In this document: piece after piece, positions 9,445 through 62,518 of the stretch | How the letters are laid out: each line of letters opens with the position of its first letter | Position numbering within the stretch: the first letter of the stretch is position 1 | Assembly (NCBI RefSeq): GCF_018777385.1 | Contig: NZ_JAFJYB010000005.1 | Location: 62,001-126,000 of the forward strand | DNA length: 64,000 nt | Origin: Candidatus Symbiopectobacterium endolongispinus | GTDB lineage: Bacteria; Pseudomonadota; Gammaproteobacteria; Enterobacterales; Enterobacteriaceae | Direction of reading: 5' to 3' | The notes under the pieces: generated by a model | What the model was told of the DNA's origin: nothing | Databases searched by the model: none | Seen by the model: only the letters and a program-made list of their open reading frames with translations | Translations under genes and position numbers: made by a program

Positions 9445-10704
9445 ATGAATCTTACCGAATTAAAGAATACGCCAGTTTCTAAGTTAATTACTCTTGGCGA
9501 AAACATGGGGCTGGAAAACCAGGCTCGTATGCGTAAGCAGGATATTATTTTCGCCATTTTGAAGCAGCACGCAAAAAGTGGCGAAGATATTTTCGGCGAT
9601 GGCGTGCTGGAAATCTTGCAGGATGGTTTCGGTTTCCTCCGCTCCGCAGACAGCTCCTACCTCGCCGGCCCTGATGATATCTACGTTTCTCCCAGCCAAA
9701 TCCGCCGTTTTAATCTTCGTACTGGTGACACCATTTCAGGCAAGATTCGTCCTCCCAAAGAAGGGGAACGCTACTTTGCCTTGTTGAAAGTCAACGAAGT
9801 CAATTACGATAAACCTGAAAACGCCCGCAACAAGATCCTGTTTGAAAACCTCACTCCGCTGCATGCCAACTCACGTTTGCGTATGGAACGCGGTAATGGT
9901 TCAACTGAAGACCTGACAGCACGCGTATTGGATTTGGCGTCTCCGATTGGCCGTGGTCAACGTGGTTTGATCGTGGCACCACCGAAAGCCGGTAAAACCA
10001 TGCTGCTGCAAAATATTGCACAGAGCATCGCGTATAATCACCCTGATTGCGTGCTGATGGTACTGCTTATCGACGAACGTCCGGAAGAAGTGACCGAGAT
10101 GCAACGTCTGGTGAAAGGGGAAGTGGTGGCGTCTACCTTTGACGAGCCTGCCTCTCGCCACGTTCAGGTTGCTGAAATGGTGATTGAAAAGGCCAAGCGC
10201 CTGGTCGAGCACAAAAAAGACGTTATCATCCTGCTGGACTCCATCACCCGTCTGGCGCGTGCCTACAACACCGTGGTACCGGCGTCTGGCAAAGTGCTGA
10301 CCGGTGGTGTGGATGCCAACGCCCTGCACCGTCCGAAACGCTTCTTTGGTGCTGCGCGTAACGTGGAAGAGGGCGGTAGCCTGACCATTATCGCCACCGC
10401 GCTGGTAGATACAGGCTCGAAGATGGACGAAGTGATTTACGAAGAGTTTAAAGGTACAGGTAACATGGAACTGCATCTGGCGCGTAAAATCGCTGAGAAG
10501 CGTGTATTCCCGGCTATCGACTACAACCGTTCCGGTACGCGTAAAGAAGAGCTGCTTACCACCTCCGAAGAGCTGCAAAAAATGTGGATCCTGCGCAAAA
10601 TCATTCACCCGATGGGTGAGATCGATGCAATGGAGTTCCTGATCAACAAGTTGGCGATGACCAAAACCAACGATGAATTCTTCGACATGATGAAGCGTTC
10701 ATAA
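9445..10704 (+). CDS. rho: transcription termination factor Rho
   Basis: A complete 419-residue Rho, the hexameric RNA helicase that terminates transcription. The N-terminal RNA-binding domain contains [17 protein letters not shown]; Walker A is APPKAGKT (about residues 178-185); Walker B is [17 protein letters not shown]; the Q-loop and R-loop follow as in E. coli, and the protein ends [11 protein letters not shown]. Start, length and sequence match the enteric protein closely. Intact, and followed by an intrinsic terminator. Confidence 0.99.
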
Positions 10705-21807: not shown

Positions 21808-22027
21808 CGGCGTGACCATCTGCTGAGCCATCGGTATTGGTTATGACGATTGGCTCTTAAAACAAAATTGTTATTCTTATTTGATTTTAAATGACTATTT
21901 GCTAATCAGGTAAAAATGCAGAAGGATATGCTGCATAAAATGTGCGAACCAGCTCAATAGCGGGATGGGCACGATAAAACCCGGTATGAAACCGGGAGGA
22001 AAACACAACATTTAAGACTGATGATCT

Positions 22028-23421
22028 ATGGCAAACGAGGAAACGCAAGGCAAACTCCACCGTGGGCTTGAGGCGCGACATATTGAGTTGATCGCGCATT
22101 GGTGGAACGATTGGCGTTGGGTTGTTTATTGGCGCGGCGAGCGCATTGAAGTGGGCCGGCCCTTCTGTGCTGCTGGCCTATATCGTCGCCGGGATATTCG
22201 TTTTCTTTATCATGCTCTCAATGGGTGAAATGCTCTATATGGAACCGGTCACCGGCTCCTTTGCCGTGTATGCGCATAAATACATGAGCCCGTTTTTTGG
22301 CTATCTCACCGCGTGGGGTTACTGGTTTATGTGGATGGCGGTCGGGATTTCCGAAATCACCGCCATCGGCGTTTACGTGCAGTACTGGTTCCCGGAACTG
22401 CCGCAGTGGATCCCCGCTATCGTATGCGTGGCGCTGGTGGCGCTAGCCAACCTGGCCGCTGTGCGTTTGTACGGTGAAATCGAGTTCTGGTTTGCCATGA
22501 TTAAAATCACCACCATTATTGTGATGATTGTCGTTAGCGTTGGCATTATCTTTTTTTGGTATTGGCAACCACGGCCAGGCGACCGGCTTTGCCAATCTGA
22601 CCGAGCACGGCGGCTTCCTGGCGGGTGGCTGGAAATGGCTGTTATTTGCACTGTGTCTGGTGGTGGCCTCTTATCAGGGCGTTGAGCTGGTTGGGATCAC
22701 TGCCGGTGAAGCCAAGAACCCTAAAATTACCCTGCGGCGCGCAATTAATAACATCCTGTGGCGTATTCTGATTTTCTATGTTGGTGCCATTTTTATCATC
22801 GTCACCATTTTTCCATGGAATGAAATTGGCACTGCCGGCAGCCCGTTTGTGCTGACCTTTGCCAAAATCGGGATTACCGCTGCGGCAGGTATCATTAACT
22901 TTGTGGTGCTGACCGCTGCGCTTTCAGGCTGTAACAGCGGGATGTACAGTTGCGGTCGTATGCTTTATTCACTGGCAAACAACCGTCAGCTCCCGGCCTG
23001 GATAGGCAAAGTCACAGCCAGCGGCGTGCCTGCGGCAGGTGTTGCTGTCTCGATTTTTTGTCTGCTGTTAGGTTCGGCGTTAAACTACATTATTCACAAC
23101 CTGGAAAAAGTGTTCGTCTATGTCTACAGCGCCAGCGTGCTGCCGGGCATGGTGCCGTGGTTTGTGGTACTGATAAGCCAACTGCGGTTTTGCCAGCAGC
23201 ATCAGGCACAATTAGTAGGGCATCCGTTCAAATCCGTGCTGTTTCCGTGGGTGAACTATCTGACTATGGCCTTCCTGCTGTGCGTATTGGTGGGAATGTA
23301 CATCAATGAAGACACGCGGATGTCCTTATTGGTGGGGATGGCGTTTCTTGCCGTGGTTAGCGTGATTTATGCCATGCTGGAAGGGCGCAAAAAGCAGGCA
23401 TTAACGGCACCAGAAGCCTGA
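22028..23421 (+). pseudogene. yifK: yifK, APC-family amino-acid permease, two frameshifts
   Basis: YifK is an inner-membrane amino-acid permease of the APC family (linked to serine/threonine uptake in enterics). The N terminus [23 protein letters not shown] loses frame near 22095 by one extra base; the next frame resumes [23 protein letters not shown] second shift lies at 22551-22557, where 7 T stand for 6 before [12 protein letters not shown]. From there the protein runs to the end with [21 protein letters not shown] and about 12 membrane helices overall. Its place between wecG and the tRNA operon is conserved. Confidence 0.92.
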
Positions 23422-23509
23422 TTGAGGGGTGGGGATCGTCGCTGACTGTTTGTTTTCGGTACGAAATGCGCAAAGCATAAGCAAACGCATCATTTCGATA
23501 AAAAAGCAC

Positions 23510-23538
23510 TAGACAGGCAGAGATTAAATCCGTACTAT
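23510..23538 (+). promoter_or_regulatory. promoter of the argX-hisR-leuT-proM tRNA operon
   Basis: A -35 TAGACA, a 17-bp spacer and a -10 TACTAT lie 21 bp before the first tRNA. A GC-rich discriminator (CCCCACCCGC) follows, as is typical for stable-RNA promoters under stringent control. Confidence 0.6.
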
Positions 23539-23559
23539 CCCCACCCGCAACGGCGCTAT

Positions 23560-23636
<77 letters not shown>

Positions 23637-23731
23637 ATAACTTTTTTACAAGAATTGTGTGCAAGAGCTGCGGTGGTACAATTCACCGTAAGGGGCGTAC
23701 CGGTTTTATCGTTAGTTGTAAGCAGTACATT

Positions 23732-23808
23732 GGTGGCTATAGCTCAGTTGGTAGAGCCCTGGATTGTGATTCCAGTTGTCGTGGGTTCGAGTCCCATTAG
23801 CCACCCCA
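23732..23808 (+). tRNA. hisR: tRNA-His (GTG)
   Basis: A 77-nt tRNA with the extra 5' G of histidine tRNAs, anticodon loop TTGTGAT (GTG) and encoded CCA. Second in the operon. Confidence 0.98.
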
Positions 23809-23831
23809 GATTCAGATGTTCGTGAATGTAT

Positions 23832-23917
23832 GCGAAGGTGGCGGAATTGGTAGACGCGCTAGCTTCAGGTGTTAGTGTCCTTCAGACGTGAGGGTTCAAG
23901 TCCCTCTCTTCGCACCA
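23832..23917 (+). tRNA. leuT: tRNA-Leu (CAG)
   Basis: An 86-nt class II tRNA with a long variable arm, anticodon loop TTCAGGT (CAG) and encoded CCA. Third in the operon. Confidence 0.98.
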
Positions 23918-23972
23918 ACGAACATTATCAATAGTCAGTGTGATACACTGATGGCGTTGAAAAAAAGCATTT

Positions 23973-24049
23973 CGGCGAGTAGCGCAGCTTGGTAGCGCAA
24001 CTGGTTTGGGACCAGTGGGTCGGAGGTTCGAATCCTCTCTCGCCGACCA
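23973..24049 (+). tRNA. proM: tRNA-Pro (TGG)
   Basis: A 77-nt tRNA with anticodon loop TTTGGGA (TGG), acceptor CGGCGAG / CTCGCCG and encoded CCA. Last in the operon. Confidence 0.98.
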
Positions 24050-24060
24050 CTTTCCGTGAA

Positions 24061-24092
24061 AAGCGGCTATTCCTGAGGAATAGCCGCTTTTT
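24061..24092 (+). terminator. intrinsic terminator of the tRNA operon
   Basis: A 13-bp perfect stem (AAGCGGCTATTCC / GGAATAGCCGCTT) with a TGA loop and a five-T run, 12 bp after tRNA-Pro. Confidence 0.93.
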
Positions 24093-24177
24093 GCTTTCTC
24101 CATCCGTCGCATAGCCTGTTCTGTGGAAAACGCCCCCGCTGTGCGAGGGCGAAAATCGCTTATTCCGCTTTACCGCC

Positions 24178-24972
24178 CTACAGCACTTTATCACTGCCGA
24201 AATACTTCTCTGCCAAGGCTTTTAACTGGCCGTTCTGACGCAGCTGTTGCAGTTTCTGATTGAATGCTGCCAGCAACTTGTCGCCTTCCGCCGTTTTGGC
24301 AAACGGGAGCGTGACTTGTTCATTGGAGATGGGTTCACCCACCAGCTTCAGCGGCAGGTGACGTTTATTAATCTCTGCCAACAGGATAGGGCGGGAATTG
24401 ACATAGCCTTGAACGCGATTGTTGATCACATCATTCATTGCCCCGTCGCGGGTTTCATAGGTGCGGATGGTGACGTCATTGTTGGGAAAGGCGTTGTGCA
24501 GGTTGGTCACGTGTGTCGAGCCTAATACGCCAGATACGGTTTTACCCTTGAGATCGTCCAGAGACTGAATGTCTTTGTTCTCAACGCTGGTGACGATTTG
24601 CGTTGCGTAAGTGAGGTAAGTGTCGGTGAAGTTATATTTTTTCTGACGTTCGGTGGTTTTCACGAAATTATTGGCCACGGTATCCAGCTTTCCAGCCTCC
24701 AACTGGCCCATCAGTCCGCTGAAATCAGCGGTGGTCCAGGTGACCTGATAACCCAATTCGCGAGCGATGGTTTCCACAACCTCGACATCTTAGCCGACCA
24801 GCGTGCCGTTCTCTTTATAAGAACCCGGGAAGCTTTGGCCCGTCGTGCCTACGCGCAGCACCTTACTCTGCGTTCCCACGCTCTTGTTATTATCGCAACC
24901 AGCCAGTGTCATGGCGGCAAGTAGGGTCAGCAGCGCGGCACTGACGTGGCGGGTCAATTGGATTTTCATCAT
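24178..24972 (-). pseudogene. amino-acid ABC transporter substrate-binding lipoprotein, internal stop
   Basis: A periplasmic binding protein of the polar amino-acid family (SBP family 3). The N terminus MMKIQLTRHVSAALL with lipobox LAGC indicates a lipoprotein. The body has VLRVGTTGQSFPGSYKE, DTVANNFVKTTERQKKYNFT, DDLKGKTVSGVLG and GYVNSRPILLAEINKRHL. A TAA at 24790-24792 interrupts LVG-DVEVVETIARE, where the close paralogue at 28.4 kb has phenylalanine. The rest of the frame is open. The two binding proteins are clearly related and flank the same cluster, so this was probably a second receptor for the same transporter. It is divergent from the dehydrogenase gene. Confidence 0.88.
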
Positions 24973-25267
24973 GAGGTTCCTGTTTCAACATTCCTGGTTT
25001 AGAACGAAATCGGGTTAACCATTTGCAACGCGTTCATTAGTTCTGAGGGTAATGGTAGGCTAACAACAGTGGGGTGCACATTGAGGGGACGTGAAGGAGC
25101 GCTGTTTGTTTGAAAACTATATTATTCAAAATAAACAGGATTTTATACCTTCACGTTATATCTTATGACCATTTTATCGGTTACAACCTGCTGACAGGCT
25201 TTTACTATTGCACTTTAATAGCCTGTGCGTATGCTTTGGCACAGTGTAGAAAAATCAAGGAATTACT

Positions 25268-26341
25268 GTGTTTGCTATCAAATCTCCCGGTGTCTATCAC
25301 CACCAGTCTGGCCTGCTTTCACGTGTGGGTGAACTGGTTGCGCCATTTTCTCGTCACATTGCCGTGTTGACCAGTCCACGCGCCTGGACAGCGGTAGAAC
25401 GTGCACTCTCTACCAGTTTGATGCAGTCCGACGTGCAGTTTGATGTATACCTGTTGGAAGGGGAATGTACGCGCGAGGCGATTGCACACCATCAGCATGA
25501 AATTGCTCAACGTGGCGTGCAGGTTGTCCTCGGTGTTGGCGGTGGACGCGTGATGGACTGTGCCAAAGCGGTCGCTGATGGGCTGGAGAACGGTCAGGCG
25601 ATCACTTTGCCGACTATCGCTGCCACCTGCGCGGCCTGGTCACCGATCAGTATTCTGTATGATGAGCAGGGTGGGCATCAGGGAACGCAGGTATTGCAAC
25701 ACATGCCGGTGATGGTGCTGGTCGACAGTGACGTGATTGCCCGCAGCGATGTGCGCTATCTGAAAGCCGGAATCGTCGATGCGCTGGCTAAATGGTATGA
25801 ATTTCAGCCCTATCTGGCGAAAAACGGAGATAATCTGGCGCTGAACCTTAAGGTTCAGGTGGCAACGCTCGCCCGCGATACCTTTGTACAGTGGGGCGAA
25901 CAGGCACTGAGAGATAATGCCGAACAGCAAGTGACCGTGGCGCTGCAAAAGGTGAACGATGCCAATATCGCGCTGGCCGGATTGGCAAACAGCATGCGTG
26001 ATGACTCCCCTTCACCCGGCGTAGCCCATGCGATTCATAATCGAATGACGCACGTTCCTGAACTGCATGACTGGTTGCATGGAGAGAAAGTCGGCTATGG
26101 CTTGCGGGTGCAGTCGTTAGTGGCGCGCGGCGACGGTTCGGTCGATCCCGATTTGCTGGCACAGTTGCAGCGCTATGATGCCACCGCGTGCTTGCCAGTG
26201 GCGGAAGCGCGCTATGCCGAACTGGCCGATACGCTGTCTCAAACCTTTAAATTCCCAGCTGCTAGCGCCGCACTGCTGCCATTTTCGCTGGCACCCGAGG
26301 CGATTCAACGGGCTGTATTAACAACGCAATACAGCAAGTGA
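25268..26341 (+). CDS. iron-containing alcohol dehydrogenase-family oxidoreductase (HcxA/YbdH-like)
   Basis: A 357-residue protein of the glycerol dehydrogenase branch of Fe-dependent alcohol dehydrogenases. A GTG start is preceded by AAGGA. The NAD(P)-binding segment is GVGGGRVMDCAKAVAD, followed by TIAATCAAWSPISILYDEQG, strongly reminiscent of E. coli YbdH (HcxA, a 2-hydroxycarboxylate dehydrogenase). Metal ligands are supplied by the Asp of AGIVDALAKWYE and the histidines of GVAHAIHNRMTHV and DWLHGEKVGYG. It sits just upstream of the lyase operon on the same strand, 170 bp away with an apparent promoter between, so co-function is possible but not shown. Substrate unknown. Confidence 0.85.
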   Translation: MFAIKSPGVYHHQSGLLSRVGELVAPFSRHIAVLTSPRAWTAVERALSTSLMQSDVQFDVYLLEGECTREAIAHHQHEIAQRGVQVVLGVGGGRVMDCAKAVADGLENGQAITLPTIAATCAAWSPISILYDEQGGHQGTQVLQHMPVMVLVDSDVIARSDVRYLKAGIVDALAKWYEFQPYLAKNGDNLALNLKVQVATLARDTFVQWGEQALRDNAEQQVTVALQKVNDANIALAGLANSMRDDSPSPGVAHAIHNRMTHVPELHDWLHGEKVGYGLRVQSLVARGDGSVDPDLLAQLQRYDATACLPVAEARYAELADTLSQTFKFPAASAALLPFSLAPEAIQRAVLTTQYSK

Positions 26342-26384
26342 TGCGGTTTTACGGGATGTGATGGATATCAATATAGCGTTACGT

Positions 26385-26423
26385 CTGGATTATCTTCTGA
26401 ATATAATATAGATCCAGAAGATA
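26385..26423 (+). promoter_or_regulatory. putative promoter with overlapping operator of the lyase operon
   Basis: Two interlocked inverted repeats surround a -10-like TATAAT (26402-26407): CTGGAT (26385-26390) with ATCCAG (26412-26417), and the 9-bp TATCTTCTG (26391-26399) with CAGAAGATA (26415-26423). A weak -35 (TTACGT) lies 17 bp upstream of TATAAT. An operator over a -10 suggests repression by a dimeric regulator that is not encoded in this window. The first gene starts about 90 bp downstream. Confidence 0.5.
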
Positions 26424-26511
26424 TATGGGGGCCGATTTGTCGCATGCTATATTTCCAAGATTAGAACGACGACAAAAATCCCGCCTGACACATCCAACGA
26501 ACGAGTAAGCT

Positions 26512-27867
26512 ATGGCATCACATCTCATTGATTTTCTCCTCATCGGGAACAACTTTGGCACGCCCGAAATGCGTGCTGTCTGGTCAGAACATAACCGCCT
26601 GACGAAGCAGGTTGACGTTGAAGTTGCGCAGGCGCTGGCCGAAGGTGAACTGGGCGTTATCCCGGCCGACGCCGCACAAACCATTGCCGCGAAAGCGGAT
26701 GCAAGCGCACTGAATGTGGAGGAGATCGCGCAGGACGCGGTCCGTATGAAGCACTCCCTGATGCCCACCATCACCGCGATTCAAAAGCAATGTGGCGACG
26801 CGGGCGAATACATTCACTATGGTGTGACCACGCAAGATATCGTGGATACCGCCACGGTACTGCAATTACAGCAGGCTTTTGCCATTGTCGAACGCGACAC
26901 GCGATTGATGGCGGTTGAGTTGAAACGGCTGGCGAAAAAGTATCAGCATACGCCGATGACGGGGCGTACTCACGGCATGCGGGCGCTACCGACCACGTTT
27001 GGCTTTAAACTGGCGGTATGGCTGGATGAGTTTGTTCGCCATCTGGAGTGTCTGAAAGAAATCAAAGCCCGCGTACTGGTGGGTAACGTGAATGGTGCAA
27101 TTGGTACCTATGCATCGTTCGGCGAATTGGGGCCGCAGATTGAGCGCCTGACGTTGGATAAATTGGGGCTGGGTACGCCGAACATCGGCTGGCAGTCCGC
27201 GCGCGATCGTTTCTCCGAATATGCTTCCGTAGTGGTTCTGATCAGCGGCACGCTCGGCAGCGAGCTGTATAACCTGATGCGCACGGAAATCAACGAAGTT
27301 GAAGAGCCGTTCTCAGCAGGCAAAATTGGCTCCACCACCATGCCGCACAAGCGTAACCCGGCGGCATTGGAAGGGCTGGCTAGCTTAACCGCACCCATTT
27401 TTAAAAGCGCATCGCTGATTCATGAGTCCATGAAGGTGGAACATGGGCGTGACGCTATGAGCTGGCGCGCTGAGTGGATCTCTCTGCCGGAAGTGAACGT
27501 TTACCTCTCTGCGCAGTTGCAGAATGCGCTGGGTATCCTGCGCGGTATGTCGGTGAATGAAAAGCAGATGCTGGCGAACCTGGAGCTGCAAAACGGCCTG
27601 TTGCTCTCTGAGAAAGTGATGTTTGAAATTGGCAAACGTATGGGTAAACAAACCGCGCACCATTTGGTGTACGAGTGCTCCATGAAGGCGTTTGAACAGA
27701 ACCGTCACTTCAAAGAGGTGCTGCTGGAAGACCAGGTGCTGTCGGCACAGGTTACCGCGCAGGAACTTGACGCATGGCTGAACCCGGTCAACTATTTGGG
27801 CTGTGCACCGCAGAAGGTGGATGAAGTGATTCGTTATGCCGACAACTCTGGTCTGCTGCCAGCGTAA
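26512..27867 (+). CDS. aspartase/fumarase-superfamily lyase, candidate S-(2-succino)cysteine lyase
   Basis: A 451-residue lyase resembling adenylosuccinate lyase. Superfamily signatures are all present: HYGVTTQDIVDTA, TGRTHGMRALPTTFG (catalytic histidine) and GSTTMPHKRNPAALE, with the presumed catalytic serine at residue 274 in the flexible loop. These enzymes eliminate fumarate from a succinyl adduct. Purine synthesis is unlikely to be its role, because it heads an operon for uptake and N-acyl processing of an amino-acid-like compound: GNAT, binding protein, permease, ATPase and M20 deacylase follow in the yxeLMNOP order. I therefore infer a lyase for S-(2-succino)cysteine or a similar adduct. 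I recall a 2-succino-lyase pathway of this kind reported for Dickeya and Enterococcus. The fold is certain, the substrate is inference. Confidence 0.82.
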   Translation: MASHLIDFLLIGNNFGTPEMRAVWSEHNRLTKQVDVEVAQALAEGELGVIPADAAQTIAAKADASALNVEEIAQDAVRMKHSLMPTITAIQKQCGDAGEYIHYGVTTQDIVDTATVLQLQQAFAIVERDTRLMAVELKRLAKKYQHTPMTGRTHGMRALPTTFGFKLAVWLDEFVRHLECLKEIKARVLVGNVNGAIGTYASFGELGPQIERLTLDKLGLGTPNIGWQSARDRFSEYASVVVLISGTLGSELYNLMRTEINEVEEPFSAGKIGSTTMPHKRNPAALEGLASLTAPIFKSASLIHESMKVEHGRDAMSWRAEWISLPEVNVYLSAQLQNALGILRGMSVNEKQMLANLELQNGLLLSEKVMFEIGKRMGKQTAHHLVYECSMKAFEQNRHFKEVLLEDQVLSAQVTAQELDAWLNPVNYLGCAPQKVDEVIRYADNSGLLPA

Positions 27868-27880
27868 GTGAGCGTTAAAC

Positions 27881-28402
27881 ATGAGCACGGTTTTTCGCCA
27901 GCTCACGCTGGAAGACGACGAAGCCTTTCTGGCGTTGGCGGCCTATGAACCAATTCGCCAACTGGGCATTCACTTTGCCGCGGCTGAGGCAGATATTGAT
28001 ATGGTGCGTCGCCATATTACGTGCCACGGTGTTTATGCGCTGGAAAAAGACTGCGTGATGGTGTCGTCTTTTAGCATCCATTACCCTTGGGGACCGGAAC
28101 CTGGCCCGTATGGTTTGCCGCATTTGGGGTGGTTCGCCATCCACCCGGACTACAAAGGGCAGGGGTTTGGCCGCCAGATGATGCAGTGGATGGAAGAAAC
28201 GGTGCTGATATGGCAACTCAAGGCACCCGCGGTTTCTTTGGGCACGACACAGAGCCACCCTTGGCTGATCGACATGTATAAGCATTACGGTTTTAACGAA
28301 GTCGGGCAGGCGAATCTGGGTAAAGGCCACCTGACGATTTATATGGAAAAAGTGTTAGACCAGGATGGTTATCACCAGTGGAAGAAGAAAAATTCCCAAT
28401 GA
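27881..28402 (+). CDS. GNAT-family N-acetyltransferase (YxeL-like by context)
   Basis: A 173-residue acetyl-CoA-dependent acetyltransferase. Motif A is visible as WFAIHPDYKGQGFGRQMMQWME, followed by VSLGTTQSHPWLIDMYKHYGF, the usual GNAT C-terminal half. It starts 13 bp after the lyase stop and ends 11 bp before the binding protein start, so it is co-transcribed. In B. subtilis the gene at this position relative to the transporter, yxeL, N-acetylates S-(2-succino)cysteine. The same substrate class is inferred here, with an M20 deacetylase at the other end of the operon. Confidence 0.8.
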   Translation: MSTVFRQLTLEDDEAFLALAAYEPIRQLGIHFAAAEADIDMVRRHITCHGVYALEKDCVMVSSFSIHYPWGPEPGPYGLPHLGWFAIHPDYKGQGFGRQMMQWMEETVLIWQLKAPAVSLGTTQSHPWLIDMYKHYGFNEVGQANLGKGHLTIYMEKVLDQDGYHQWKKKNSQ

Positions 28403-28413
28403 GAGGCATGAAC

Positions 28414-29228
28414 ATGATAATGAAAAAACTGACTTTGTCTGCGTTAGCGCTTACCACTGCCTTTCTAATGGCGGGCTGTGACTCTCAGGACAAAAAAGCG
28501 GCGGCGGGCGGAGAGGCCAGCACGGTGCTGCGCGTAGGTTCTACCGGACAAAGCTACCCGAGCGGCTTTAAGCAAGATAACGAGCTGGTGGGTTTTGACG
28601 TTGAAGTCACGGAAACCATCGCGAAAGATCTGAATTACAAAATCGAGTGGGTTACCACTGATCTCAGCGGCCTGATGGGGCAGTTGGAAGCGAACAAACT
28701 CGATACCGTAGCTAACGTCGTGGCGATCACGCCAGCGCGCAAAGAAAAGTATAACTTTGCCGATGTGTATAGTATAGCTACTACGGCAGCCAGATAGTTA
28801 CGCACAAAGATAACGCCAATATCAACACGCTGGATGACCTGAAAGGCAAAACAGTGGCGGGCGTATTTGGCTATAACTACTTAAATAACCTGAAGAAAGC
28901 CTTTGCTGACGGCAGCGTGACCATCCGCACCTATGAAACCAGCGATGGCGCAATGAATGATGCGTTGTCCAAGCGCGTGGAAGGCTATGTAAACTCCCGC
29001 CCGATCCTGTTGGCTGAAATCAACAAGCGCAACCTGCCGTTCAAACTGGTTGGCGATCCGCTGGTGATCGAGGAAGTCAGCTTCCCGTTCCACAAAGATG
29101 AAAAAGGCGACAAACTGCGTGAGCAGTTCAATGCCGAGCTGGCGAAAATGCGTGCTGATGGCCGTCTGAAAGAGATTTCCGTGAAATATTTCGGTGAGGA
29201 CATTACTACCGCACCGCAAGCACACTAA
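28414..29228 (+). pseudogene. amino-acid ABC transporter substrate-binding lipoprotein, 5-bp duplication frameshift
   Basis: SBP family 3 receptor of the operon. The chosen ATG (MIMKKLTLSALALTTAFLMAGC) has GAGAGG at the right distance; the lipobox is LMAGC. It continues VLRVGSTGQSYPSGFKQ and DTVANVVAITPARKEKYNFADVY. A perfect tandem duplication TATAG-TATAG at 28768-28777 then shifts the frame and a stop follows. Removing one copy restores DVYSYYGSQIV and the rest (DDLKGKTVAGVFGYN, GYVNSRPILLAEINKRNL, ending DITTAPQAH). A 5-bp duplication is not a typical sequencing error. If real, the transporter has no receptor, because the paralogue at 24.2 kb is also interrupted. Confidence 0.88.
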
Positions 29229-29284
29229 CCGCCGCGCTTTTTGTCATCTCTTTTCCACCGGTGCTTGCGCCGGTGGAAGCATTA

Positions 29285-29968
29285 ATGGTACTGCTCATGA
29301 ATATCGATTTTGCATACCTGCTGAAGGTGTTTCCTCAGGTTTTGCTCTATTTACCGACCACGCTACTATTAGCCGTGGTATCCATGATTTTCGCCATGAT
29401 ACTGGGTCTGGTGCTAGCGCTTCTGCGGGAAAGCAAGATCACGGTATTGGTGAAGGTGATTGAGTTTTATATCTCGCTGTTTCGCGGCATTCCGTCGCTG
29501 GTTCAGTTGCTTATCATCTACTTCGGTTTGCCGCAGCTGTTCCCGGCGCTGAGCGATCTGACCGCTATGTCGGCGGCGATTATCGGTTTTAGCCTAAAAA
29601 CCTCGGCGTACATGGCGGAGATTTTCCGCGCTGCGCTGGCCTCGGTCGATTGGGGACAAACGGAAGCCGGGCTGTCGATCGGCATGAATCGTTCGCAGAT
29701 TTACCGCCGTATCGCACTGCCGCAGGCGATGCTCAATGCGCTGCCTGCCACAGGTAACACCTTTATCTTGCTGATCAAAGACACCTCGGTAGCCTTTGCA
29801 CTTGGCGTATCTGAACTGTTTGCTGAAGGTAAAATGATCGCCGCTGAATCGCTGCGTTTCTTTGAAACCTTCCTGGTGGTAGGGCTGATTTATTGGCTGG
29901 CCATCATCGTTTATTCCAGACTGCAAAACTGGCTGGAAAAGAAACTGAACCACTCATTACAGCGCTAA
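29285..29968 (+). CDS. amino-acid ABC transporter permease (YxeN-like)
   Basis: A 227-residue inner-membrane permease of the His/Glu/Gln/Arg family. Helices include VFPQVLLYLPTTLLLAVVSM and MIFAMILGLVLALL. The cytoplasmic EAA-type loop reads EAGLSIGMNRSQIYRRIALPQA and couples to the ATPase. GGAAG lies five bases before the chosen ATG; an ATG 12 bases downstream (MNIDFAYLL) is an alternative. It lies between the binding protein and, 12 bp on, the ATPase gene. The frame is intact. Confidence 0.88.
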   Translation: MVLLMNIDFAYLLKVFPQVLLYLPTTLLLAVVSMIFAMILGLVLALLRESKITVLVKVIEFYISLFRGIPSLVQLLIIYFGLPQLFPALSDLTAMSAAIIGFSLKTSAYMAEIFRAALASVDWGQTEAGLSIGMNRSQIYRRIALPQAMLNALPATGNTFILLIKDTSVAFALGVSELFAEGKMIAAESLRFFETFLVVGLIYWLAIIVYSRLQNWLEKKLNHSLQR

Positions 29969-29980
29969 GGAGACGCCGCC

Positions 29981-30742
29981 ATGATCAGTGTAAAAAACCT
30001 CTCAAAAAGCTTTGGCGACAAAGTGGTGCTGGACAATATCAGTCTGGATATCGCACAGGGCGAAGTGGTGGCGATTATCGGCCCTTCAGGGTCGGGTAAA
30101 TCCACCCTGCTGCGTTGCCTCAACCTGTTGGAAAAACCGGAGTCCGGCACGATTGAAATTGGCGATCGCGTACTGGATACACGCCGTTATAGTACCAAGG
30201 AAGCCTACGCACTGCGTCAGCAGACCGCGATGGTGTTCCAGAACTACAACCTGTTCAAGAATAAAACCGCGCTGGAAAACATCACGGAAGCGTTGATCGT
30301 GGTGAAAAAAATGCCGAAGAAGCAGGCGCAAGAGATTGGACTTCGGCTTATCGAGCAGGTTGGCCTGTTGCCGGAAGCCCATCAGTATCCGGTGACCTTG
30401 TCCGGCGGGCAGCAGCAGCGCGTGGGTATCGCGCGCGCACTGGCCGTGGACCCGAAAGCCATTCTGTTTTATGAACCAACCTCGGCGCTGGATCCAGAAC
30501 GCGTGCACGAAGTGCTGCAAGTGATTCAAAATCTCGCGAAAAACAGCACCGCCATGGTTATCGTGACCCATGAGATGCGGTTTGCCAAAGAAGTTGCTGA
30601 TCGGGTTATTTTCATGGCCGACGGGCATATCGTCGAGCATGGGCCGGCCGAGCAGGTGATCAGTTTCTCTGACAACCCGCAGACGCAGCGTTTCTTGCGC
30701 CAGATGACCAAGATGCCAGAACATACGGAATACGACATCTAA
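29981..30742 (+). CDS. amino-acid ABC transporter ATP-binding protein (YxeO-like) with altered Walker B
   Basis: A 253-residue polar amino-acid ABC ATPase. Walker A is GPSGSGKST (about residues 32-40), the Q-loop lies in AMVFQNYNLFKN, the signature is LSGGQQQRVGIARAL and the H-loop is in VIVTHEMRFAKEV. Walker B reads ILFYEPTSALDPE: tyrosine 164 (TAT at 30470-30472) stands where essentially all relatives have the magnesium-coordinating aspartate (LFDEP). One G-to-T change explains it. The protein is full length with an AGGAG-type ribosome-binding site, but is predicted to be ATPase-defective. Another reading is that translation is intact while selection is already lost, in line with the broken receptor. 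Confidence 0.9.
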   Translation: MISVKNLSKSFGDKVVLDNISLDIAQGEVVAIIGPSGSGKSTLLRCLNLLEKPESGTIEIGDRVLDTRRYSTKEAYALRQQTAMVFQNYNLFKNKTALENITEALIVVKKMPKKQAQEIGLRLIEQVGLLPEAHQYPVTLSGGQQQRVGIARALAVDPKAILFYEPTSALDPERVHEVLQVIQNLAKNSTAMVIVTHEMRFAKEVADRVIFMADGHIVEHGPAEQVISFSDNPQTQRFLRQMTKMPEHTEYDI

Positions 30743-30835
30743 CGATGCGGTGATAACAAGCTATTTAGATAAAATACCCTGCGCGCTGCGGGCTTATCCT
30801 GCGGCGTTAAGCACGGACAGTGTGGAGAAAACATC

Positions 30836-31993
30836 GTGAAAACGGCACCTCAGCATGCGCCGTTAGCGCAATTTATTCAGGCGTTCCGGCACGATCTGCA
30901 CCAGAACCCTGAATTATCCAACCAGGAATTTGAAACCACCAAGAAAATCCGCGCCGCGCTGGAGAAGGAAGGCATACGCATTCTGGATCTGCCGTTGAAA
31001 ACCGGCCTGGTCGCAGAAGTCGGCGGCGTGCAGGATGGCCCATTGGTTATCGTGCGTTCAGATATCGATGCACTGCCGATTGAAGAAGAGTCCGGCGTGG
31101 AATTCACCTCTCAGCGTCAGGGCGTGATGCACGCTTGCGGGCACGACTTTCACTCATCTGCCGCGCTGGGTGCCGCCATTTTGCTTAAAGGTATTGAGTC
31201 CGAGCTAAAGGGCACCGTGCGCATTCTGTTCCAGGCGGCGGAAGAAACGGGGCTGGGCGCGCCAGAAGTGATCGCGACCGGTGCGCTGGATAATGCGGCA
31301 GCCATCTTTGGCATTCACAACGACCCAACGCTGCCAGTTGGCGTGGTCGGTGGTAAAGATGGCGCACTGACGGCAGGCGTGGATCGTTTTGAAATCAAGA
31401 TCGCTGCTAAAGGCTGCCATGCGGCCAAACCTCATGAAGGTAACGACCCCATTATCATTCTCAGCCAGTTGATTAGTGCGGTGCAGACCATTATCAGCCG
31501 TACGGTGCCTGCGGATGATACCGCCGTGGTGTCAATCACTCAGGTACACAGTGGCAGTACCTGGAACGTGATCCCAGATACCGCCTACGTGGAAGGCACG
31601 GTACGCACCTTTAGCCAGGCAGCGCGCGATCTGATTGAACAGCGCTTTCGCCAGATTGTGGCAGGTATTGCCAGCACCTTTGGCGCTGAGCTCGAGTTTA
31701 TCTGGCACGCCGGGCCGCCGTCCGTGGTCAATACGCCGGAATGGGTGGATTTTGCCCTGCGTGTTGCCGATGAAGAAGGTTTTGAAGCGCGCCGCGTAGA
31801 TGCCAGCCCGATTGGCGAGGATTTTTCCTTCTATCAGCAAAAACTGCCGGGTACATTCATGATGTTCGGTTCGGGCGGGCCTTATGCACTGCATCATCCG
31901 AAATTCCGGGTTGATGACAGCGCACTGTTCCCTACCGCGCACTACCGCCATCAGTTGGCGAAACAGAGCCTGGAACAACTGTCTTCTCGCTGA
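30836..31993 (+). CDS. M20-family N-acyl amino-acid deacylase / amidohydrolase (YxeP-like)
   Basis: A 385-residue metal-dependent amidohydrolase of peptidase family M20 (IAA-amidohydrolase/YxeP group). Metal and catalytic residues are in RSDIDALPI, HACGHDFHSSAAL, QAAEETGLGA (adjacent glutamates), FGIHNDP and the C-terminal ALHHPKF histidine. A lid domain starts near residue 180. The start is a GTG (MKTAPQHAPLAQFIQAF). It is last in the operon, 93 bp after the ATPase gene, and a 12-bp-stem hairpin follows. In the yxe model it removes the acetyl group from N-acetylcysteine after cleavage of the succinated adduct. Activity on that substrate is inference. Confidence 0.87.
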   Translation: MKTAPQHAPLAQFIQAFRHDLHQNPELSNQEFETTKKIRAALEKEGIRILDLPLKTGLVAEVGGVQDGPLVIVRSDIDALPIEEESGVEFTSQRQGVMHACGHDFHSSAALGAAILLKGIESELKGTVRILFQAAEETGLGAPEVIATGALDNAAAIFGIHNDPTLPVGVVGGKDGALTAGVDRFEIKIAAKGCHAAKPHEGNDPIIILSQLISAVQTIISRTVPADDTAVVSITQVHSGSTWNVIPDTAYVEGTVRTFSQAARDLIEQRFRQIVAGIASTFGAELEFIWHAGPPSVVNTPEWVDFALRVADEEGFEARRVDASPIGEDFSFYQQKLPGTFMMFGSGGPYALHHPKFRVDDSALFPTAHYRHQLAKQSLEQLSSR

Positions 31994-32000
31994 TGTTTCC

Positions 32001-32026
32001 ATCCGCGCCGTGTTCACGGCGCGGAT
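32001..32026 (+). terminator. hairpin closing the lyase-transporter operon
   Basis: A perfect 12-bp stem (ATCCGCGCCGTG / CACGGCGCGGAT) with a TT loop, 8 bp after the amidohydrolase stop. There is no long T-run. The following 270 bp to the next gene are AT-rich and hold nothing else I can identify. Confidence 0.6.
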
Positions 32027-32296
32027 AATCTATTGATATATCCTTCATCTTTCACGTTGCGTTCGCTGGTGCCGTTCAATGCGTTAACGTGTTGTCTTGT
32101 ACTGTAAATTATTAAGGCTATATCCCTGTTTTTATTTAGACAAAACAGACAAATACTTTTCATTTCTTGTTCGATATTTCTTTTTAATACTAAACGCAAG
32201 TTAAACGATATGTCATTGATCGTATAAATTGCTATGCAAGAAATGAACCAATAATACAATTTTATGCTGAGGGTAAGTGTATTAAAAGGAATCGAA

Positions 32297-32627
32297 ATGA
32301 ATATTAAGTTTACATTATTGTTTGCCACACTTCTGCTTTCTGGTTGTACGACGCAATGGGTGAAAAGCAGCGCAAACGCTGAGCGAAGAAAAATTCCCTG
32401 TGAAAAATAAAGTGGCGCAGCGAACGCAATATACGTCCTACTATTTGCCGTGTGGGAAAAAGGACGACTGTAAAAATGAAAAATATATCAGCGGGCAACA
32501 ACCAGAAACACAAAGTTATGTGATGGATGTTAATAGTGGTAGCCGCCAGGCCCTTTTCAATCATTGCATGAAATTGAGGGGGATGGACATCGGAAACGAA
32601 ATGGTTCCCATAAGGATGGTAATGTAA
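32297..32627 (+). pseudogene. small lipoprotein, frameshifted
   Basis: An unrecognised small lipoprotein. MNIKFTLLFATLLLSGCTTQ is a clear lipoprotein signal with lipobox LSGC. The first frame stops at codon 37. One base shift near 32380 leads to SEEKFPVKNKVAQRTQYTSY, then YYLPCGKKDDCKNEKYISG, ending about 110 residues from the start. The downstream frame has four cysteines. The stretch is AT-rich compared with its neighbours, which suggests lateral origin. GGAATCG precedes the ATG. No function is assigned. Confidence 0.6.
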
Positions 32628-32637
32628 AAGGAATACC

Positions 32638-33860
32638 ATGAATAACTTGCGACATTTTGTTTTTATAATTATGTCTTTATGCTTAAGCTCCGCGTTTGCC
32701 ATGGCATCACCGCCGCCAGTACCGGAACAGGCTCCGGCACTGAGTGATGTTGTGATGAGTGAAGGGCAAGTGAAACTTAACAGGGTCGCCTTAATTATCG
32801 TGCCGCAGCGGGCGCATTAGCACTGAATACGGACGATCCCGATGAACCGATCGCGACCTTGTCCTACGTGGCCTACTTTAAGTCGGTGGAGAAGACGGCG
32901 AAGCCGGAGAATCGGCCGATCACGTTTATCTATAACGGCGGACCGGGTTCTTCTTCCGTGTGACTGCATATGGGAGGTTTAGGGCCAAAGCGGGTGGTCA
33001 CCAGCACGCCGGATAAACCCGTATTGCCGCCTTATCCGGTTATCGATAATGCCTATTCTCTGCTTGATGTCAGCGATCTGGTCTTTATCGATGCGCCGGG
33101 CACCTGGTTTGGTCAGTTTATCAGCAATGCGGCCAATGTTCAGGAGCGGCAGGCGCAGAAGCGTCAAAAGGAGACTGACACCTACAGCATTAATGGAGAC
33201 GCACACGCGTTTGCGCAATTTATCACGCAGTTTCTGAGCCGTTATCAGCGCTGGAATGCACCGCGTTACCTGCTTGGTGAGAGCTACGGCACGACGCGTA
33301 CGGTGGCGCTGGCAAACCGGCTGAAGGTGCAGCACAACGTCGATGTTAACGGTATTATTTTGCTGTCGCAGTATTTGAGCCAGGATATTGATATCGATCG
33401 TCCTGAATCCAACCTTGGCATCGATCAGCCCTATTACCTGGCGTTGCCAACCTATGCGGCAATCGCCCATTACTATCAGCATCCGGCAAACGTCGCAGAA
33501 AATCTGGATCATTTGCTGACTGAGGTTGAACAGTTTTCCCTTGGTCCTTATGCACAGGCGTTGGCTCAGGGCAATCTCTTGCCAGAATCGCAGAAAGCAG
33601 AGCTTGCTGAGCAACTTGCCCGTTACACCGGTATACCCGCGCGGGAATGGGTTAAGGCCGATTTGCGCGTTTCAGGCCCGCTGTTTGTTAAAAAACTGCT
33701 GACAGAGCAGGGCGATACGGTCAGCCGTGCTGACGGCCGTTATCGAGGAGCCTCGCTGGATAAAATGGCTGCGCGGAGCGATTACGATCCGGTTATGACT
33801 ATCGGCTCCGAGTTTATTTCCGCGTACCACGACAATCTGGCACGGTTCATGCTAACATAA
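32638..33860 (+). pseudogene. S10-family serine carboxypeptidase-like secreted protein, broken and truncated
   Basis: A signal peptide (FIIMSLCLSSAFAMA) begins the frame. The frame shifts near 32785, then continues NYRAAAGALALNTDDPDEPI. The oxyanion-hole motif FIYNGGPGSSSV is followed by TGA at 32961-32963, where tryptophan is expected before LHMGGLGP. The nucleophile elbow GESYGTTR is present later. The protein ends at FISAYHDNLARFMLT, where S10 enzymes continue with the segments carrying the catalytic Asp and His, so the 3' end is also lost. Between its end and the terminator at 34071 I see about 200 bp of unidentifiable, probably decayed, sequence. Confidence 0.82.
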
Positions 33861-34070
33861 CCCCGTAGATGCTCATTCCGCCTTCTATGTTTGCTTCGGC
33901 TTCATAATCCTGGGAATGACGCAGAGCCGTTTACCGGTGCCTATCGTCCACCTCCAGATGACGTTGTGATTAGCCGTTTTCACTGCATTTCACGACACCA
34001 TCGGACTTTTTTTCGGACATTACGTTGAGTGAGGCACTCTACTGTAGTCTTTTATGACCTGATCTTATTC

Positions 34071-34102
34071 AACGCTTGCCGTTTATTTGCAAGCGTTTTT
34101 TT
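34071..34102 (+). terminator. intrinsic terminator
   Basis: Stem AACGCTTGC / GCAAGCGTT with an 8-nt loop, followed by eight T. It is oriented to close rightward transcription from the S10-peptidase relic. The convergent bgl gene ends about 10 bp beyond it. Confidence 0.85.
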
Positions 34103-34113
34103 TGCACCATTTT

Positions 34114-35565
<1,452 letters not shown>

Positions 35566-35591
35566 TTATCCAAAATGAAACCGGCTTCATT

Positions 35592-35828
<237 letters not shown>

Positions 35829-35871
35829 TGCGTAACGGTATAAAAGAGAGTCTCTTTAGCTGATGGGATAG

Positions 35872-35896
35872 CGCTGCCCCAGAATGTGGGGCAGCG
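35872..35896 (-). terminator. hairpin downstream of hemY
   Basis: A perfect 10-bp stem (CGCTGCCCCA / TGGGGCAGCG) with a 5-nt loop, 10 bp beyond the hemY stop. There is no T-run on the hem strand, so it may be a processing or 3'-protecting structure. Confidence 0.55.
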
Positions 35897-35906
35897 TGGA
35901 GCGCGA

Positions 35907-37097
35907 TTAAGACGGGGTTTGTAGTGTGAGTAACAGCCCTTCGCGACGCATCTGTGCCGCTTCTTCCGGTTGGCGCAGATGATCAAAGGCATCGGCGCGC
36001 CAGGCGTAATCAAAGGCATCCGGGCGCAGCGCCAACGCCGCAGCAAACGCATCGCTGGCCTGCTGCCACTCCCCCTGTTTCAGCATTAACTGTCCCAGGG
36101 TACTGTGCAGTAACGCACTGTTATCGTGCTGTTTTAGCAACTGGCGCAGGAGTTTTTCCAACGAGGCCGGTTCGCCTGCGGCCAGATGTGGCATCAGCAG
36201 TACCAGACGTTCATCGTAGTGACGTTTCAATCCGTCGATCACAATCTGCTGGGCGGTATGGTGATCGTCGCAGGCAATAAGGTGTTCCGCCATCGCCACT
36301 TGCAATGGCAAATCTTGCCGCACCTTACGGCTTTGTTCCTTCCACCACTGCTTCAGGCCTTCGCTGCCGCCTTCCACCATCGCTTGTTACATCAGACCGA
36401 GCAGGGCGGATTGGCGCAATGCCTCCAACTCCTCCTCAGTACGAATCTGGGTTTTGCGCATGGCAGGCAGAATATCTAACAGCGCACCGTAAGCGTTGGT
36501 GCGTTGGGACGCCAGTTCCGCTAACCGTAATACTTCAGGATGGCGCGGTGCGTATGCCAGCAAACGATCGACGCCATGGCGTGCGGCGTGATCCTCATTA
36601 CGAGCCAGTTGGATGCGTACGCGGGTGATGTCTACCGGCAACTGATCGGTGTCGGCCATTTCAGCCACTCGCTCCAGATACTGTCGGGTGCGAAATTCAT
36701 CACCGCGCTGCTGCGCGGCTTCGGCGACCAGCAGATAGTTCACCACCGGTTGCTCTGCGTGATCCGCGTTACGCGTCAGCAGTTTTTCAACCTGGAGATA
36801 ATCGCCCTCAGCCAGTTTAAGCAGGGCTGCTTTGGTCTGTTTTCTGGCGCGTGTGCGTTTACGGCCCAGGAACCAGCCGCGGGTGCGCGCGCCGGTGCGA
36901 AATACGCGGCGCAACAGCCACTCCAGCGCAAACAGGACGACCAACAGCAGCACCAGCATGATAACCAATCCGGTAACGCTGGTTTCGATGTTGTAGGTGT
37001 CGGTTTGCACCAGTACATAGCCCTGACGTCCTGCGAGCATCGGGCCAAGCACTACGCCAGCAATAAGGATCAGGAACAAGAACAGCACTTCCAGCAT
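35907..37097 (-). pseudogene. hemY: hemY, protoheme-biosynthesis-associated TPR membrane protein, nonsense
   Basis: HemY is an inner-membrane TPR protein of the hem operon with an indirect role in heme synthesis. MLEVLFLFLILIAGVVLGPMLAGRQG gives the first membrane helix and LVIMLVLLLVVLFALEWLLRR the second. A TAA at 36387-36389 interrupts ALLGLM-QAMVEGGSEG after 236 residues. The rest of the frame (LQVAMAEHLIACDDH, TLGQLMLKQGEWQQASDAF) stays open to the normal stop, about 396 codons in all, the family length. One substitution therefore accounts for the damage and the C-terminal TPR half would be lost. Confidence 0.92.
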
Positions 37098-61823: not shown

Positions 61824-62518
61824 ATGATTTATTTATGACAGGCTTAGGAGCGTGGTCATGCGAACCACGGTTGGCTGGATAGCTGGCACAGTTGCTCCTT
61901 TGCAGACTACTACGATCCCAATATGGGGTTCTCTGCGTTACGTGTGATCAACGAGGACCGCATTGAAAGTGGGCAAGGGTTTGGCACCCACCCGCACAAA
62001 GACATGGAAATCCTGACTTATGTGCTGTCCGGCACGGTGGAACATCAGGACATTATGGGGAAACAAGGAGCAGATTCCGGCGGGTGAATTTCAGATCATG
62101 AGTGCAGGCACCGGGATTCGCCATTCGGAATACAATGCCAGTCAGGATGAGCTGTTGCATTTGTATCAGATTTGGATCATTCCGGAAAAAGCTGGTATCA
62201 CTCCGCGTTATGAACAACGACGCTTTGACACACCGCAGGGCCGTCAAAGCGTCGTTGTCACCGGATGCACGTGAAGGTTCGCTGAAGGTGTATCAGGACA
62301 TGACGCTGTCGCGTTGGGCGCTGAAAGCCCAAGAGCAGTCGGTATATCAGGTGCCGGCAGGCCGTCGCGTGTGGATTCAGGTGGTACGGGGAGAGGTGGA
62401 AATCAATGGTCAGGCAGCAGGCGAAAGCGATGCGCTGGCGATATGGGATGAAGAAACCCTCTCAATTCATGCCACGCAACAGAGTGAAATCTTGTTGTTT
62501 GATCTGCCGCCGGTGTAA
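61824..62518 (+). pseudogene. pirin-family protein (YhhW-like), two stops and two frameshifts
   Basis: Pirins are cupin-fold metalloproteins; E. coli YhhW is a quercetinase. MIYL is followed by TGA (61836-61838) and TAG (61845-61847), where E. coli has [31 protein letters not shown] then runs in frame. Metal ligands are in [16 protein letters not shown]. One extra A at about 62061 breaks [19 protein letters not shown], and another shift near 62250 precedes SPDAREGSLKVYQDM. The C-terminal cupin is readable to LLFDLPPV. Four independent lesions make this an old pseudogene. Confidence 0.9.

Follow-up and report, generated by a model that had tools for sequence, protein, structure and literature searches.

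A 2SL-type yxe (scm) locus, probably in decay, in Candidatus Symbiopectobacterium endolongispinus

Layout of the locus and its published relatives

Does a set of genes that reads as a pathway for splitting a fumarate-thiol adduct still work as one in the genome of a symbiont? The question is raised by a six-gene cluster in a stretch of 64,000 nucleotides (the window; positions 62,001 to 126,000 of contig NZ_JAFJYB010000005.1) from Candidatus Symbiopectobacterium endolongispinus, an endosymbiont of the mealybug Pseudococcus longispinus. Its genome, 4,492,448 bases long in the assembly used here, has been described as 4.492 Mb with 2,559 intact genes and 2,679 pseudogenes, in a paper whose main text does not contain the string 'succino' (PMC13345370). 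It is likely that the cluster is a 2SL-type yxe (scm) locus of the kind common to Pectobacterium, Brenneria and Dickeya, that it would once have served the salvage of S-(2-succino)cysteine (2SC), and that it is decaying here. The features considered are as follows.

24163..24972, - strand: another family-3 binding-protein gene, the nearest paralogue of the one in the operon, with 2 stops; a neighbour of uncertain membership
25268..26341, + strand: iron-containing alcohol dehydrogenase-like gene, upstream neighbour (ORF list, Pfam, locus comparison)
26392..26422, no strand: imperfect palindrome, candidate operator, about 100 bp before the lyase start
26512..27867, + strand: 2SL-type lyase of the aspartase/fumarase superfamily, 451 aa, open frame, Pfam Lyase_1 and ADSL_C, in the 2SL clade (96/96), probably impaired
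27881..28402, + strand: GNAT acetyltransferase in the YxeL/ScmL position, open frame, Pfam GNAT
28378..28797, + strand: N-terminal piece of a broken solute-binding protein (SBP) in the YxeM position, Pfam SBP_bac_3 (also ORF list and alignment to relatives)
28854..29228, + strand: C-terminal piece of the same protein in another frame, with similarity starting near 28773 (ORF list, Pfam)
29261..29968, + strand: ABC permease in the YxeN position, open frame, Pfam BPD_transp_1; relatives align from near 29297
29981..30742, + strand: ABC ATPase in the YxeO position, open frame, Pfam ABC_tran, Tyr at residue 164
30836..31993, + strand: M20 amidohydrolase in the YxeP/ScmP position, open frame, Pfam Peptidase_M20

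The initial annotation had described lyase, GNAT, binding protein, permease, ATPase and M20 deacylase as six genes on one strand. Their order, coordinates, strand and short gaps stand as described, but the binding protein is two ORFs in different frames. The yxe (scm) operon of Bacillus subtilis has GNAT, SBP, permease, ATPase and M20 genes in the same order as the window. No YxeK-like gene lies within the operon, in agreement with the initial annotation, and the only PF00296 (luciferase-type monooxygenase) match in the whole genome is elsewhere and has an internal stop. The GNAT, the ABC transporter genes (with the SBP broken) and the M20 gene adjoin the lyase, in keeping with the definition of a yxe locus as at least three clustered yxe components (PMC9706529), and the combination of a lyase class I gene with the absence of yxeK is that of a 2SL-type yxe/scm locus.

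The work of Hillmann et al. (2022; PMC9706529) gives this gene set a biochemical meaning. There, 2SL is the lyase class I gene found in 27 of 102 yxe loci, and it occurs alongside yxeK only rarely (three times among the loci surveyed). The 2SL genes of D. dadantii and E. italicus allow a B. subtilis yxeK mutant to grow on 2SC again. The purified enzymes cleave N-acetyl-2SC reversibly, yielding fumarate and N-acetylcysteine, whereas 2SC itself is a far poorer substrate. Other small thiols are also accepted, N-acetylcysteine being the best substrate tested, and the authors did not decide between internal breakdown and the salvage of external 2SC as the role of the locus (PMC9706529). The N-acetylcysteine deacetylases of B. 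subtilis were characterised in a later paper, which cites the 2SL variant (PMC12757645). The window locus shares with B. subtilis yxe the plan of acetylation, breakdown and deacetylation (PMC9706529); there, however, N-acetyl-2SC is broken by the FMN monooxygenase YxeK, in whose place the window has a lyase. With the D. dadantii locus (2SL UniProt E0SKP1; PMC9706529) it shares the lyase in place of YxeK, the GNAT, the ABC transporter and the M20 gene. The gene order is also alike when Dickeya is compared through the orthologues of D. oryzae (86% identity) and D. undicola (85%), whereas the window differs in its split SBP and in an ATPase and a lyase that are changed at invariant positions.

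By analogy with the Dickeya and Enterococcus enzymes, we infer that the lyase of the ancestor of the window lineage had the same activity. In that ancestor, the amino-acid ABC transporter would import 2SC, the GNAT enzyme would N-acetylate it, 2SL would beta-eliminate fumarate from N-acetyl-2SC to leave N-acetylcysteine, with no need for oxygen, and the M20 enzyme would deacetylate this to cysteine. The initial annotation had pointed to a related 2-succino lyase route in Dickeya and Enterococcus. That route is real and is the same pathway (PMC9706529), so the idea is not a new one: the pathway is already published and the window locus adds one member to a known kind of operon.

The spread of the gene set among relatives bears this out. 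The window's order of lyase, GNAT, SBP, permease and ATPase recurs in 51 of the 61 related loci, and in 30 of those an M20 match follows downstream; the gene order is not due to chance. Among the ten loci that deviate, five have lyase, GNAT and M20 genes with no adjacent transporter genes (two in Rahnella and one each in Klebsiella, Rouxiella and Serratia), that of Erwinia oleae consists of lyase and GNAT, two are cut short within the cluster by an end or a break, and in the last two a distant lyase stands by itself. At L047, L048, L049, L057 and L067, which have lyase, GNAT and M20 genes without same-strand transporter genes, amino-acid ABC genes lie nearby on the opposite strand. Lyase matches at E <= 1e-150 were found in 15 of 246 genomes of the window's family, its own genome counted, and the locus is present in four of five genomes of the genus. 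Taken together with the tree described below and the published 2SL work (PMC9706529), the synteny supports the original reading of a yxe locus with a lyase exchanged for the monooxygenase.

State of the genes in the symbiont genome

The transporter genes are not whole, as they would be in an intact 2SL-type locus. The binding protein is split between ORFs 28378-28797 and 28854-29228, with alignments to intact relatives switching frame near 28773, and the ATPase has Tyr at residue 164, where the Asp of the FDEP motif (which we take to be Walker B) is found in 47 of 47 references. We regard this as the decay of a 2SL-type member and not as a different system. The ATPase is probably dead, to judge from its sequence. 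The closest paralogue of the operon SBP, at 24163-24972, is 59% identical to it and likewise broken; the match that ranks next by score has 30% identity.

The lyase keeps its frame, but departs from 52 reference lyases at 7 of 187 near-invariant columns (five substitutions and two deleted columns). Seven near-invariant columns are also altered in the congener G003 (Symbiopectobacterium 'North America'), and none in the congeners G002 and G004. A 3-residue deletion follows residue 247 of the window lyase, within helix 230-260 of the AlphaFold model (mean pLDDT 78.1, pTM 0.80), and the G003 lyase (L008 9001-10359) is also without a 3-residue stretch beside the same place. The frame of the latter is open as well; nevertheless, its RTHG motif has another residue in place of the His that all 52 references carry. 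The window lyase is therefore probably impaired or inactive despite its open frame, although its substitutions show no significant preference for invariant columns (binomial p = 0.11), which speaks against decay. Fewer changes were seen elsewhere in the window operon, at 2 of 44 near-invariant columns in the GNAT and 2 of 77 in the permease (none in either gene in G002 or G004), and at 5 of 197 in the M20 enzyme, of which three are common to G004; G004 itself has four such differences in M20 and one in the ATPase, and G002 two in the ATPase and three in M20. Single changes in any gene of the operon, the lyase and ATPase included, may be errors of draft assembly.

Frame breaks are spread unevenly through the genus. 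All genes are whole in G004, the M20 gene is split in G002, and in G003 the permease is split, the ATPase lies across three frames and the M20 gene has a stop. Over 9445-46540, 16 of the 33 ORFs of G004 are broken in the window, a tally to which the lyase contributes two partial ORFs and M20 a single one. Breakage of this extent in the neighbourhood is in line with a recent symbiont genome. Set against decay is the fact that five of the six operon genes keep an open frame while about half of the ORFs compared are broken.

Replacement and silent changes were counted by parsimony over four genomes on the terminal branches, leaving out four neighbour ORFs with fewer than 200 common codons. For the operon, the ratios of replacement to silent changes were 22:48 in the window, 4:86 in G002, 22:36 in G003 and 10:127 in G004. 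The window thus differs clearly from G002 and G004 combined (14:213, p = 2.4e-7), and the same holds for the lyase by itself (7:14 against 3:55, p = 0.003). The operon's ratio on the window branch cannot be told apart from that of twelve broken neighbours (101:184, p = 0.58). Its excess over ten intact neighbours (30:105) is not significant (p = 0.18), which counts against decay and implies that part of the excess reflects genome-wide relaxation. Intact and broken neighbours nevertheless differ from each other on this branch (p = 0.007), and ORF 9445-10701, presumably Rho, has a ratio of 0:11.

These data need to be weighed against the possibility that only the import half of the operon has been lost, and that the enzymes still act as an internal repair route on succinocysteine formed within the cell. 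Such a route would account for the open lyase and GNAT frames in all four genus genomes that carry the locus (the window, G002, G003 and G004), where SBP, permease, ATPase or M20 is broken in three of the four, and it would find a parallel in L047-L049, L057 and L067, where the lyase, GNAT and M20 genes lack neighbouring transporter genes. However, seven near-invariant columns are altered in the window lyase, the lyase of the sister genome G003 has lost its RTHG His, and the enzyme genes alone (14:29) resemble the broken neighbours on the window branch (101:184, p = 0.86). We therefore consider an internal repair route unlikely. Retained internal use of acetylation and the lyase is possible, but less likely than decay. 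Selective keeping of lyase and GNAT across the genus, suggested by the frames, is likewise rejected on the replacement counts and the loss of the His in G003. In its most specific form, in which import is gone and the symbiont retains acetylation together with an altered, still-active lyase to clear internally made succinocysteine, the proposal seems to us quite improbable; if true, it would bear on the choice between internal breakdown and outside salvage posed for the 2SL locus in PMC9706529.

The operon in this genome is thus probably a relic of a known kind. The oxygen-free splitting of a fumarate-thiol adduct put forward in the initial annotation is right for the family, for which it is in print (PMC9706529), but the data do not support a functional operon in this genome, given the broken SBP and the signs of decay in the ATPase and lyase. 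A caution follows for similar loci, in that a gene set which reads well by eye proved to be a probable relic after column-by-column comparison with its relatives.

Family assignment of the lyase

By lyase identity, the closest loci are those of Candidatus Symbiopectobacterium (96% and 94%), followed by Brenneria, Pectobacterium and Samsonia (86-87%) and Dickeya (85-86%). In a tree of 43 rows, the window lyase and 22 lyases drawn from the 61 related loci, each with an adjacent GNAT match, form one side of a branch with support of 96/96, recovered in 98% of 200 bootstrap trees. The Dickeya rows lie inside this 23-row 2SL clade, and enterobacterial PurB, Bacillus-type PurB, PcaB-like and other lyases lie outside it; the assayed 2SL enzymes of D. 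dadantii and E. italicus are absent from the tree. In a first version with 45 rows, which included two very long ones (L124 and L127), the putative 2SL rows failed to group together; the tree was rebuilt after the two long rows were dropped. Of the 54 loci requested for the tree, L001 gave no match and L002, L004 and L128 were left out as distant or partial; L079 and L118-L122 were omitted from both trees as duplicates, and ArgH-like rows were also dropped. A tree against PurB and 2-succino lyases had been proposed as a check on the initial annotation, and the tree built here places the window lyase outside the PurB and PcaB rows.

The protein family models agree with this for most of the candidates. 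PcaB is rejected by two models that score below their cut-offs (NF006554, 372.5 against 595; TIGR02426, 250 against 355.75). ArgH, the other assignment that would have told against the initial annotation, is rejected by model score alone (TIGR00838, 41.5 bits against 279.5).

A role like that of XcbD in coenzyme M synthesis, with some other small thiol in succinated or sulfonated form as the substrate, is very unlikely for the lyase. XcbD (3-sulfopropionylcysteine synthase) belongs to the same superfamily, its name implies C-S chemistry on cysteine, and its model NF052536 ranks second among the NCBIfam matches of the window lyase; 2SL enzymes also accept other small thiols (PMC9706529). Against this, the score of 417.6 bits is far under the cut-off of 600, on which we reject the identity with XcbD, and the best substrate tested in print is N-acetylcysteine (PMC9706529).

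That the lyase is an adenylosuccinate lyase (PurB) within an operon that has some other job is scarcely credible: the purB model TIGR00928 passes (357.7 against 326.2 bits) and four Pantoea plasmid orthologues of the window lyase carry a purB annotation, but the protein falls outside both PurB groups of the 43-row tree, despite belonging to the same superfamily, and the genome has a separate PurB of its own (L003, 774.2 bits to PRK09285). The model itself does not discriminate PurB, as it is also passed by six scanned members of the 2SL clade and by L161 and L162, which lie outside the PurB groups (L163 and L072 were left out of the NCBIfam scans). We therefore reject PurB on the tree and the separate gene, notwithstanding the model score. 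Since 2SL lyases pass this NCBI equivalog model (seven of the seven clade lyases scanned), it is a likely source of wrong purB labels.

Features flanking the operon

The palindrome at 26392-26422 spans 31 bp, with arms of 14 bases of which 12 match by eye. A search of six genomes for its core, GATCTANNNTAGATC, gave a single site in each of Brenneria izbisi, Pectobacterium aroidearum and Samsonia erythrinae, always some 100 bases ahead of the 2SL start, and no exact copy in G000, G004 or Dickeya oryzae. The chance expectation of the palindrome pattern is zero, but the pattern was drawn from the same site and so provides no independent test. None of the four ORFs that follow M20 in Brenneria izbisi (DJ-1/PfpI, HemY, HemX and HemD) is a candidate regulator. 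That such a palindrome precedes 2SL by a constant interval in several genera nonetheless points to a putative regulator.

An Rfam scan of 22000-36000 returned only GlmZ and four tRNAs, the GlmZ small RNA gene lying at 33865-34102 of the window with a score of 144.7 bits.
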